This document shows, piece after piece, positions 33,369-36,421 of a DNA stretch of 45,727 nt. Made by a program: the position numbers and the translations under genes. How positions within the stretch are numbered: position 1 is the stretch's first letter; each line of letters opens with the position of its first letter. The notes beneath the pieces were generated by a model. It did no database searches. It had not been told where the DNA came from and saw nothing but the letters and a program-made list of their open reading frames with translations. The stretch is from Aminivibrio sp. (GTDB taxonomy: Bacteria > Synergistota > Synergistia > Synergistales > Aminobacteriaceae): NCBI RefSeq assembly GCF_016756745.1, contig NZ_JAESIH010000062.1, positions 1 through 45,727 of the forward strand, read 5' to 3'.

Positions 33369-33437
33369 TTGAAATCGGACTGTTGACAGATCCGGCGGAG
33401 GTAGCCTATAATCTCCGTCATACCTGAATACTGAATC

Positions 33438-33598
33438 GAATCATCCGGAGCGACGGAGGGACAGGCCCTGTGAAGCTGCGGCAACCTCCGCGAGGTTGCG
33501 GAAGGGTGCCGGTTCCTGCAGGTTTCCCTGGAAGATGATCGAGGCTGAATGAACCAGCGACGCCTCTTCCAGCATTCCCGAAGATGTTTTTATTTTTT
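33438..33598 (+). promoter_or_regulatory. SAM-I (S-box) riboswitch with terminator/antiterminator platform
   Basis: The aptamer (33438-33541) has the S-box core GACGGAGGGACAGGCCC, TGAAGCTGCGGCAACC and AAGGGTGCCGGTTCCTGCAG, with P1 strands TCATC (33441-33445) and GATGA (33534-33538). Downstream, TCTTC (33565-33569) and GAAGA (33580-33584) form a short hairpin just before a T-rich run (33587-33598). CTGGAAGA (33528-33535), overlapping the 3' strand of P1, is perfectly complementary to TCTTCCAG (33565-33572). This gives the classic exclusive choice: SAM bound, P1 and terminator; SAM absent, antiterminator. It precedes metQNI. Confidence 0.9.
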
Positions 33599-33634
33599 GT
33601 CGGTCCCCCGGCCCGACGGAAAGGAGGAATCACC

Positions 33635-33727
33635 ATGACCGGTTCCATCAGAAACGGATTCTGCGATATGTTCACCATGATGATGTGCGGCAACGGCGGA
33701 TCTCCTCCGGGAAGGGTCGGCGGCTGA
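33635..33727 (+). CDS. 30-codon Met-rich leader ORF of metQNI
   Basis: ATG 33635 follows the strong ribosome site AAAGGAGGAATCACC. The peptide is MTGSIRNGFCDMFTMMMCG followed by NGGSPPGRVGG. Met codons stand at 12, 15, 16 and 17, three of them consecutive at 33677-33685. It lies after the SAM riboswitch and ends 21 nt before a strong intrinsic terminator. GGATCTCC (33698-33705), just past the Met run, can pair with GGGATCC in the 5' arm of that terminator. Position and codon content fit a translational attenuator sensing charged Met-tRNA. An independent small-protein function is possible. Confidence 0.6.
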   Translation: MTGSIRNGFCDMFTMMMCGNGGSPPGRVGG

Positions 33728-33748
33728 CATCGTGCGCTGATTTGCCGG

Positions 33749-33788
33749 AACGGGATCCCCGCAGCTCAAGGGGGGTCCCGTTTTTTTT
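33749..33788 (+). terminator. intrinsic terminator in the metQNI leader
   Basis: AACGGGATCCCC pairs with GGGGGGTCCCGTT, followed by eight T (33781-33788). It lies between the leader ORF and metQ, so it must be read through for metQNI expression, which marks it as a regulated attenuator. Confidence 0.85.
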
Positions 33789-33917
33789 ATCCTGGAAGGA
33801 GGGGATGCAATGGCCGATGACGACGGCATGAGCGACATGAAAGAAGCGGACGATGGCATTCGGGCCGGACGGACGAGTCCGAAAGATGTCAGTACAGGAC
33901 GAAAGGACGGAAAGAGA

Positions 33918-34715
33918 ATGAAAAAAATCGCAGCACTGTGCGCAGCAGCAGCCATAGCCGTTTTCACAGCCGCAGGGGCGGAAGCCGCCGCTCTTGTTCC
34001 CCTGAAGGTCGGGGCGACTTCGGGGCCCCATGCCGAAATACTGGAATTCCTGGCGGAGAGACTGAAGAACGAAGGCGTGGACCTCAGGGTGTTTCCCTTC
34101 AGCGATTACATCACCCCAAACGCCGCCCTCGACCAGGGAGATATCGACGCAAACTCCTACCAGCACCAGCTCTTTCTCGACACCCAGAACAGGGACCGGG
34201 GATACAGGCTTGTCTCTGTGGCCAAGACCGTGGTCTGCCCCATGGGGTTCTACTCAAAAAAAATAGGGACCATCGACGACCTGAAGGATGGTTCGAAGGT
34301 CTCCGTTCCTAATGATCCGGCAAACGTGGGCAGGGCCCTGGTCCTGCTGGAAAAGAAAGGATTCATTAAGCTGCGGGAAGGAACGGGGTATACCGCCTCG
34401 GTGCTTGACATCGTGGAAAACCCGAAAAATCTCAGGTTTATCGAGATCGAGGCTCCCCAACTTCCCAGGGTTCTGGACGACGTGGACATCGGCGCCGTGA
34501 ACGTGAACTACGCGGTGGAGGCGGGCCTGTCCCCCCTGAAGGACGCGATCCTGCTCGAGGATGCCGAAACCTCCCCCTTCGCCAACGTGATCGCCGTCCG
34601 GGAGGAGGACAGGGACAATCCCCTGGTGAAAAAGCTCGTGGAGGCCTACCGGACGGAAGAGACCGCGAAGTTCATGCTGGAGCGATACAAGGGCGGCTTC
34701 ATTCCCGCCTGGTAG
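33918..34715 (+). CDS. metQ: methionine ABC transporter substrate-binding protein MetQ
   Basis: A 265-residue NlpA/MetQ-family binding protein. The ATG at 33918 starts a signal peptide MKKIAALCAAAAIAVFTAAG ending AEA; earlier in-frame ATGs from 33810 lack a ribosome site. The mature part has VGATSGPHAEILEFLAERL, NAALDQGDIDANSYQHQLF and VSVPNDPANVGRALVLLEK, all classic. Unlike many MetQ proteins no lipobox Cys follows the hydrophobic core, so it may be a free periplasmic protein. The SAM-I riboswitch supports methionine as ligand. Confidence 0.93.
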   Translation: MKKIAALCAAAAIAVFTAAGAEAAALVPLKVGATSGPHAEILEFLAERLKNEGVDLRVFPFSDYITPNAALDQGDIDANSYQHQLFLDTQNRDRGYRLVSVAKTVVCPMGFYSKKIGTIDDLKDGSKVSVPNDPANVGRALVLLEKKGFIKLREGTGYTASVLDIVENPKNLRFIEIEAPQLPRVLDDVDIGAVNVNYAVEAGLSPLKDAILLEDAETSPFANVIAVREEDRDNPLVKKLVEAYRTEETAKFMLERYKGGFIPAW

Positions 34716-34728
34716 GGAAGGTTCGGAC

Positions 34729-35790
34729 ATGGCCATCCTCCTGAAGGGCGTGACGAAAACCTACGGCGCCGGGGAAAAGCGGTTGAAGGCTTTGAGCAAT
34801 ATTGACCTTGAAATTCCCGACGGCTCCATCTTCGGGATCATCGGACGGAGCGGCGCCGGAAAGAGCACTCTCGTCCGGTGCGTGAACCTCCTTGAGCGTC
34901 CGGACTGCGGCTCGGTCGCCGTGAGCGGCCTGGAACTCACCGCCCTGGATGAAGGGGAGCTCCGGCAGGCCCGGAAAAAGATCGGCATGATCTTCCAGAA
35001 CTTCAACCTCCTGTCGTGCCGCACGGTCTTCGGGAACGTGGCCTTTCCCCTGGAACTGGCGGGATGGCGCAGGGAGGATATTGCGGGGAGAGTCGACGAA
35101 CTGCTCGACCTTGTGGGCCTTGCCGACAAGCGGGACCGGTATCCCTCCCAGCTTTCCGGCGGCCAGAAACAGAGGGTGGGAATCGCCAGGGCACTGGCCA
35201 ACAGGCCGGACGTGCTTCTTTCCGACGAGGCCACGTCAGCCCTGGATCCCCTCACCACCCGGTCGATCCTGTCTCTTCTCAGGGATATCAACAGCAGGCT
35301 CGGCCTCACCATCGTCCTGATCACCCACGAGATGAACGTCATCCGGGAGATCTGCACCGACGTGGCTGTAATCGACAAGGGGAGTATCGTCGAGCGGGGG
35401 CCCGTGCTGGACATTTTCACCGATCCCCGCGCTGAGGTCACCCTGGACATGCTCCGGGACGTGATGGGAGTGGAATTGCCGGAGACCTTCGCCGGGCTCG
35501 ATTTCAGTCCGGGAATCCATGGGTCGGGAGACCCTGTCCTGCAGCTTCAGTTCTTCGGCGATATCGCCGCCGATCCCGTAATCTCCGGGATGATCCGCCG
35601 CTTCGAGGTGGATGTGAACATCCTCGTGGCCAGGATCGGCCATATACGGAACGTCCCCTGCGGCACCCTGGTGATCCGGCTCTCAGGGGACGAAAGGGCG
35701 AAAAGCGGGGCGCTGGGCTATCTCAGGGCGCTCGACCTGAAAGTGGAGGTGATCGGCCATGTGGGCTCAGGTATCAGCGTTGCTGTTTAA
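34729..35790 (+). CDS. metN: methionine ABC transporter ATP-binding protein MetN
   Basis: A 353-residue ATPase. Walker A GRSGAGKST at 39-47, signature LSGGQKQR at 142-149, Walker B VLLSDEATS at 162-170 and a switch His in LITHEMN. The C-terminal part (about 265-345) is a NIL regulatory domain that in MetN binds methionine and inhibits transport. It starts 13 nt after metQ and overlaps metI by 32 bp. Confidence 0.95.
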   Translation: MAILLKGVTKTYGAGEKRLKALSNIDLEIPDGSIFGIIGRSGAGKSTLVRCVNLLERPDCGSVAVSGLELTALDEGELRQARKKIGMIFQNFNLLSCRTVFGNVAFPLELAGWRREDIAGRVDELLDLVGLADKRDRYPSQLSGGQKQRVGIARALANRPDVLLSDEATSALDPLTTRSILSLLRDINSRLGLTIVLITHEMNVIREICTDVAVIDKGSIVERGPVLDIFTDPRAEVTLDMLRDVMGVELPETFAGLDFSPGIHGSGDPVLQLQFFGDIAADPVISGMIRRFEVDVNILVARIGHIRNVPCGTLVIRLSGDERAKSGALGYLRALDLKVEVIGHVGSGISVAV

Positions 35791-36421
35791 GGCTCTCGGG
35801 GAGACTCTGTTCATGGTGGGGGCATCGTCGGCCATAGCGTTCGCTTCCGGAGTGCCGCTGGGCGTGGTCCTTCACGTGACGTCGAAGGGAGGGCTCCTGG
35901 AGAGGCGGGTGCTGAACGGTCTGTTGTCGGCGGTGGTCAATGCCGCAAGGTCAACACCCTTCATCATCCTCATGGTGCTTCTGATCCCGGTAACGCGGCT
36001 GATCGCGGGAACGTCCATCGGCACCGCCGCGGCCGTCGTGCCCCTGTCCATCGCCGCCGCTCCCTTCGTCGGGCGGGTGGTGGAGGGAGCCCTGAGGGAA
36101 GTGGACCGGGGAGTGGTGGAAGCGGCCCAGGCTATGGGAGCCACGTCATGGCAGATCATCCGGAAGGTGCTCCTTCCCGAGGCTTTCCCGGCCATTCTTT
36201 CCGGTCTGACCCTCTCGGTGGTGAGTCTCATCGGTTTCTCGGCCATGGCCGGGGCGGTGGGAGGCGGCGGACTGGGCGACCTGGCCATCCGTTACGGTTA
36301 TCAGCGTTTCCGCCTGGACGTCATGTTCGCCACCGTGGCGGTACTCATCCTCCTGGTACAGCTCTGCCAGGCCGGGGGCGATTTTCTCGCCGGGCTGGCC
36401 AGGAAGGATGGGAAGTCCTGA
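35759..36421 (+). CDS. metI: methionine ABC transporter permease MetI
   Basis: A 220-residue permease with five predicted helices. The cytoplasmic EAA loop is VVEAAQAMGATSWQIIRKVL near residues 120-139, and NAARSTPFIILMVLLIPVTR is typical of MetI. The 32-bp overlap with metN indicates coupled translation. It completes the metQNI operon. Confidence 0.95.
   Translation: MWAQVSALLFKALGETLFMVGASSAIAFASGVPLGVVLHVTSKGGLLERRVLNGLLSAVVNAARSTPFIILMVLLIPVTRLIAGTSIGTAAAVVPLSIAAAPFVGRVVEGALREVDRGVVEAAQAMGATSWQIIRKVLLPEAFPAILSGLTLSVVSLIGFSAMAGAVGGGGLGDLAIRYGYQRFRLDVMFATVAVLILLVQLCQAGGDFLAGLARKDGKS

Follow-up and report, generated by a model that had tools for sequence, protein, structure and literature searches.

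Methionine is the start amino acid, and its supply is usually regulated by S-boxes, T-boxes and repressors. In Aminivibrio sp. the metQNI operon is preceded by a long leader in which a SAM-I riboswitch is followed by a short open reading frame with a run of Met codons and by a second terminator, and the locus raises the question of which signal governs the operon: SAM, the charging of Met-tRNA, or both of them in series. The leader lies on a stretch of 45,727 nt (contig NZ_JAESIH010000062.1) which is called the window here. Our reading is that this leader places transcription of metQNI, which encodes a Met importer, under ribosome-mediated attenuation, with the charging of Met-tRNA as its signal; a SAM-I riboswitch would act as a second, serial control in close relatives and looks decayed here, leaving the Met leader as probably the main working control. 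We put the probability of this reading at about 0.87, and ribosome-mediated attenuation at the Met codons is strongly supported by the comparison of sequences.

All elements listed in the preliminary description, namely the S-box, the 30-codon ORF, its ribosome site, the Met run, the terminator and metQNI, hold with their coordinates, and to these we add a promoter (Table 1). The three-Met run ATGATGATG occupies 33677-33685 and a fourth internal Met codon lies at 33668-33670. Region 2 codes for GGSPP together with the first two bases of a Gly codon. The terminator stem spans 33750-33781 with a loop of 10 nt, and it was missed by our pattern scan because the scan permits loops of up to 8 nt only. 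Two features of the flanks can be recorded beside this layout. Within metQ's upstream region an alternative in-frame start with a good ribosome site is found at 33810, 108 nt before the likely start, and the resulting 36-codon extension (MADDDGMSDMKEADDG..., 33810-33917) is kept in the sister species (with GTG) and not in other relatives. Just before the promoter, the segment 33200-33373 is flanked by two nested imperfect inverted repeats of 17 and 22 nt; a motif resembling TAAATCCGCAAATTTTTCAGGCAGAAGG recurs on a second contig of this genome (L073), which gives the segment the look of a small mobile or REP-like element present in several copies.

Table 1. Features of the metQNI leader and operon in the window.
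Feature	Position	Strand	Evidence
Sigma-70 promoter, TTGACA-18 nt-TATAAT	33383..33412	+	12/12 consensus matches; shuffles expect 0.1 promoter-like sites
SAM-I (S-box) aptamer, probably decayed	33438..33541	+	RF00162, 70.8 bits (gathering score 44.4)
S-box antiterminator CTGGAAGA:TCTTCCAG, 8 bp	33529..33574	+	-17.7 kcal/mol
S-box terminator remnant	33563..33588	+	-3.8 kcal/mol
Region 1, Shine-Dalgarno (SD) segment of the leader ORF, can pair with region 2	33617..33631	+	SD:B duplex -16.7 kcal/mol; covaries (114 leaders)
SD AAAGGAGGA	33620-33628	+	sequence
Leader peptide ORF MTGSIRNGFCDMFTMMMCGNGGSPPGRVGG*, 30 codons, ATG 33635, stop 33725-33727	33635..33727	+	kept in relatives with in-frame indels
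Met codons ATG TTC ACC ATG ATG ATG, proposed stall site	33668..33685	+	near-constant distance to the Pro element
Region 2 (B), distal element GGCGGATCTCCTCCGGG, antiterminator 5' strand	33695..33711	+	cognate B:C pairing, z -13.9
Region 3, GCCGGAACGGGATCCCC, 3' strand of the antiterminator, also 5' arm of the terminator	33744..33760	+	duplex with region 2 -27.2 kcal/mol; covariation
Intrinsic terminator (regions 3:4) and T-run	33750..33789	+	11-bp stem, -22.1 kcal/mol, 8 T
metQ	33918..34715	+	TIGR00363, 254.5 bits, above cut-off
metN	34729..35790	+	best match TIGR02314 ABC_MetN, 414.7 bits
metI	35759..36421	+	PRK10782 MetI, 214.4 bits, above cut-off

The leader is not peculiar to this genome, which belongs to Synergistota. 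A metQ orthologue at E <= 1e-90 was found in 12 of 188 Synergistota genomes, and every one of these 12 keeps the Met leader and its terminator; in G074 the leader stands ahead of a metY-metQ unit, and elsewhere it is also found upstream of the Met synthesis genes metY and metX. The leader peptides of G057, G055 and G074 (MTRRIDMMMCSMMMCDGGGSPPGRIGDC, MRLSDSNMMMCDMMCCLCGAPDGEYGG and MTVLTNTMMMCGMMMCDNGGSPPGRHGD) may serve as examples; G074, G016 and G057, which are among the kin of the window's genome, are, in that order, Synergistaceae LM3-B13.2, Synergistales SV1-B2.2 and Synergistota strain L-13. When 14 Met leaders are aligned, all indels in the ORF are multiples of three, a rule that indels past the stop do not obey. 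An alignment of relatives had been proposed as a check on the preliminary description, and it shows that ORF, Met run and antiterminator pairing are kept and that the pairing covaries. A pairing of the SD with the T-run suggested by alifold was judged spurious. In the G055 group (locus L031) the stop codon of the leader lies inside a hairpin, CGGCTA...TAGCCG, with TTTTTT behind it, and this may be an additional terminator acting early.

A covariance model, R1, was built from 14 Met leaders, the window's own among them, and matches 115 of the 188 Synergistota genomes (E <= 0.01); its match to the window leader has an E of 1.4e-32, that leader being part of the training set. From the fetched matches 117 complete leaders were extracted (by the rule of an SD, an ORF of 18-45 codons, Pro near its end and a terminator), 114 of which were distinct leaders with a G-x-x-Pro motif and were analysed. 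They share a common chassis of SD – codon run – G-x-x-Pro element – stop – terminator, in which the invariance of Pro is no evidence because the Pro anchor served to define the motif. What varies is the codon run: 63 leaders carry Met, 39 Ile/Leu/Val (ILV), 5 are classed as Thr, 4 are aromatic and 3 other, in proportions skewed towards Met by the origin of R1 from Met leaders. The run agrees with the downstream gene. Among leaders with a recognised met or branched-chain amino acid (BCAA) gene, 55 combine a Met run with a met gene and 26 an ILV run with a BCAA gene, with no crossover (Fisher p = 9e-22), and R1 contains no information on downstream genes; for 13 of the 39 ILV leaders the fetched stretch contains no gene recognised as a BCAA gene. 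The rarer runs include TTTT upstream of homoserine dehydrogenase, MTMT upstream of aspartokinase and FFFSFFF upstream of a family-3 solute-binding protein. All synonymous codons are used freely in the ILV runs, which indicates that amino acids are kept there and not RNA letters; Met has one codon, so that selection on the Met run cannot be demonstrated by synonymous change and the argument is carried by the relatives with ILV, Thr and aromatic runs. Spacing is conserved as well: run and Pro element are 8 codons apart in 41 of the 63 Met leaders and 6 codons apart in 32 of the 39 ILV leaders, and the distance from stop to T-run is 49.7 +/- 4.6 nt over the 114 leaders.

The arrangement is no isolated case, and it belongs to a family of attenuators that spans the phylum and serves several amino acids. 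A chassis family with swapped codon runs across Synergistota is apparently undescribed, and no Rfam family exceeds its gathering score apart from RF00162 in the window, nor does any in 12 family leaders searched with their flanks. The window's own genome holds two more family leaders (L272 and L273), one being MRASRSSLVLLLVLIIIGGPPSGGFGT with a Leu/Ile run, the other ending in FNALFAMMMRSDPPGAAGA before a 432-aa protein. In several genomes a 420-aa protein (L227:412-1671), without a match in Pfam, NCBIfam or PDB, directly follows Met-run leaders, and in some of them an ORF clustering with aspartokinases comes after it. Nearly all inspected copies of the 14-mer GGMGGATCTCCTCC, considered as a sign of many leaders per genome, lie in coding or unrelated sequence, and this count, for which a reversed-pattern control was misleading, was left unused; of 29 loci from a separate pattern scan over genome contigs, only the seven of Synergistota are leaders.

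We then consider the pairings that would turn such an ORF into a switch. For each leader the duplex energy of its own partners was compared with that of permuted partners (5000 permutations). The cognate pairing of region 2 with the terminator 5' arm (B:C) averages -20.1 kcal/mol against -16.5 when permuted (z -13.9, 114 leaders), z being -10.7 for permutation within family and -7.8 within family and specificity, and the cognate value was reached in 0 of 5000 permutations. The helix between SD and region 2 also covaries (z -9.5 overall, -7.8 within family, -5.7 within family and specificity). Three control pairings, in which the partner of region 3 is the 5' part of the ORF, its last 24 nt or the SD, stay flat (z -0.9 to +0.6). 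The effective sample is smaller than 114, as the leaders share ancestry and related genomes give several each, and the controls share that same ancestry. In the window the preliminary description had paired GGATCTCC (33698-33705) with GGGATCC (33752-33758) as antiterminator; this pairing is present and covaries, and its extent was drawn too short, the hairpin of regions 2 and 3 really spanning 33695-33760 at -32.1 kcal/mol against -22.1 for the terminator. When the window's leader is folded without region 4, the antiterminator is the minimum-energy fold for a stall at every Met codon; with region 4 present, the terminator is. The terminator is thus favoured at equilibrium, and the mechanism would need kinetic trapping, as in other attenuators; kinetic control is a feature of the classical ones. 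Comparison therefore shows a conserved and translated-looking ORF, the match of run and gene, two covarying helices and a terminator, and the marks of an attenuator were found together: a leader ORF with its own ribosome site (in 117 leaders, translation being predicted), a codon run of the pathway, an intrinsic terminator and a covarying antiterminator.

From these elements we infer stalling, folding order and termination as follows. With no ribosome on the leader, or after it has gone, regions 1 and 2 would pair, the terminator would form and the operon would be off. Stalling at the Met codons would hold the ribosome between the SD and region 2, so that the 1:2 helix is blocked and region 2 lies exposed ahead of it; the 2:3 hairpin could then form before region 4 is made, and the operon would be on. 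With the Met codon at 33683 in the A site, the front edge of the ribosome would be near 33696, just before GGATC, and this position, taken from the usual footprint, would explain the fixed spacing of run and element. It had been suggested earlier that a ribosome reaching the stop masks the antiterminator. The usual ribosome footprint would then cover about 33707-33738 and leave GGATCTC uncovered, which speaks against the suggestion; the likely competitor of the antiterminator, overlooked at the time, is the covarying helix of SD and region 2, which would be free to form once the ribosome has passed region 2.

How much does SAM still contribute? SAM-I leaders as generally known have one terminator, whereas here a second, translation-dependent attenuator follows the S-box and the S-box terminator is eroded. 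When RF00162 and R1 matches are compared, both modules stand on one strand at ten loci in nine genomes of four families, before metQNI in G000, G001, G017, G047, G055, G058 and G119 and at Met synthesis genes in G074 (two) and G185. The earlier reading in full, in which this genome uses riboswitch and Met leader alike through two successive terminators, draws on these ten loci and on the window aptamer itself, which lies above the Rfam threshold. The S-box terminator is sound in the other nine loci (about -17 to -23 kcal/mol, and about -18 to -23 in the eight besides the sister species) and the window is the exception, at -3.8 kcal/mol against -17.3 in the sister species G001 and against -17.7 for its own antiterminator. 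The aptamer points the same way: it scores 70.8 bits where that of the sister species scores 87.4, the consensus GCCAAUUCC reads GCCGGUUCC with one P2 pair broken, and J3/4 has GG where the Rfam consensus and two aligned relatives have a highly conserved AA. An aptamer above threshold is thus found in the window together with no working expression platform, which G001 and eight other loci possess. The 8-bp pairing CTGGAAGA:TCTTCCAG described earlier does stand as antiterminator, and the terminator it should compete with is nearly destroyed. With that terminator lost and GG in place of AA, the SAM input is probably lost or weak in the window genome, and we regard the joint working of both sensors here as unlikely. 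The earlier idea that SAM and Met-tRNA are sensed in series thus fares well as a recurrent arrangement of four families, and suits these relatives better than the locus for which it was proposed, where the SAM arm probably no longer works. Four genomes (G016, G049, G057 and G072) have the Met leader without any RF00162 match, so that S-box and Met leader are independent parts.

A second alternative accepts the attenuator and changes its signal, to Cys or to Met and Cys jointly. Cys is a sulfur amino acid and follows 62 of 80 Met runs, MMMC being nearly constant, and UGU is used at 2 of these 62 Cys codons; on the other hand many leaders have CGC (Arg) for UGC, and UGC or CGC also occupies a fixed place in the ILV leaders, which suggests a constraint on the RNA. 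The near-constant UGC itself would suit a constraint on the RNA and Cys sensing equally, and we hold Cys sensing to be decidedly improbable as an account of the leader. It is very improbable that the ORF makes a small functional Met/Cys-rich peptide, for example a metal-binding one: strong translation signals, recurrent MMMC blocks and a conserved C-terminal GSPPG would suit such a product, but leaders of the same chassis replace the Met run by Ile/Leu/Val, Thr or Phe/Tyr to suit the downstream gene, and the C-terminal motif is the very segment that pairs with SD and terminator. That the SAM-I aptamer, a known regulator of met genes, is the only control and the ORF and second terminator are fortuitous is refuted by the conservation of the leader, which with its terminator persists in the four genomes lacking an S-box and stands before met genes phylum-wide.

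The Met attenuator reading can also be followed outside Synergistota, where the genomes of 22 unrelated loci served as comparison set. R1 matches one of the 22, at a Met-rich leader before metN-metI in Oscillospiraceae, and a search of 101 Oscillospiraceae genomes added six Met-rich leaders, mixed with chance matches, upstream of metNI, metQ or metY (MRHIVRIDNMMMGMMMRMGTMGMMMCAPKVDSPSFKSI is an example). By these cases the range of the leaders is wider than Synergistota. Their C-terminal element is unlike that of Synergistota, and they may accordingly be convergent. At the Oscillospiraceae loci L271, L277, L278, L279, L283, L284 and L286, the Met-rich leaders are followed by candidate T-run terminators.

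In classical attenuators the leader peptide repeats the amino acid that is regulated, antiterminator and terminator exclude each other, and translation is coupled to termination. Those of Proteobacteria (trp, his, leu, ilv and thr leaders) have been summarised (PMC9413887), and the Synergistota leaders share with them the amino-acid run, the exclusive structures and the coupling. They differ in that the ORF itself contains the 5' strand of the antiterminator, 20-30 nt ahead of the stop, that region 1 includes the leader's own SD, in their Met specificity, and in the use of one conserved chassis for several amino acids across a phylum. The His attenuators in the same source were followed as a lead and set aside, as they cover Firmicutes while Synergistetes appear there with the HisR repressor. 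In 2010 leader peptides were called unknown outside Proteobacteria and Actinobacteria, the atypical ermC leader excepted; bacilli then contributed a His leader (PMC2965389). For Met-codon attenuation we found no well-supported earlier case and one weakly supported proposal, the metL leader MSTTSDRTPATEATTTPGARCMCRRMCAF with Met and Cys before metNIQ of Streptomyces lividans (PMC8079986). Like the window it has a Met/Cys-containing leader peptide before the same operon; unlike the window it belongs to a different phylum and to a leaderless transcript, with no typical terminator found, no Met run and no comparative support. Precedents for leaders of several elements, or for a riboswitch with a short ORF, are the tandem attenuators of Salmonella mgtCBR (PMC3641672) and the B12 riboswitches with uORFs of M. 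tuberculosis (PMC11260477), which concern other ligands and genes and have neither SAM nor a Met codon run. Our literature search, with most subscription papers outside its scope, returned no paper on attenuators in Synergistota, and priority is unproven.

Taking the leaders together, we consider it likely that throughout Synergistota the uptake and synthesis of amino acids are controlled by a single exchangeable attenuator chassis, built of leader SD, distal G-x-x-Pro element and terminator arm, that takes Met, Ile/Leu/Val, Thr or aromatic runs; the Met form is commonest among the leaders examined, a set gathered with the Met-derived R1, would reach into Clostridia, and has repeatedly been combined with SAM-I riboswitches in an arrangement that would read SAM and Met-tRNA in series. 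A Met attenuator that reads codons would be a kind of sensor for which only the Streptomyces proposal precedes it. One chassis with swapped runs across a phylum offers a natural experiment on the evolution of attenuators and on change of specificity, and the patchy pairings of S-box and leader, one of them with a decayed-looking S-box and an intact leader, illustrate the combination and loss of two metabolite sensors. A testable form of regulation is thereby proposed for many short ORFs that lack annotation in Synergistota and Oscillospiraceae.
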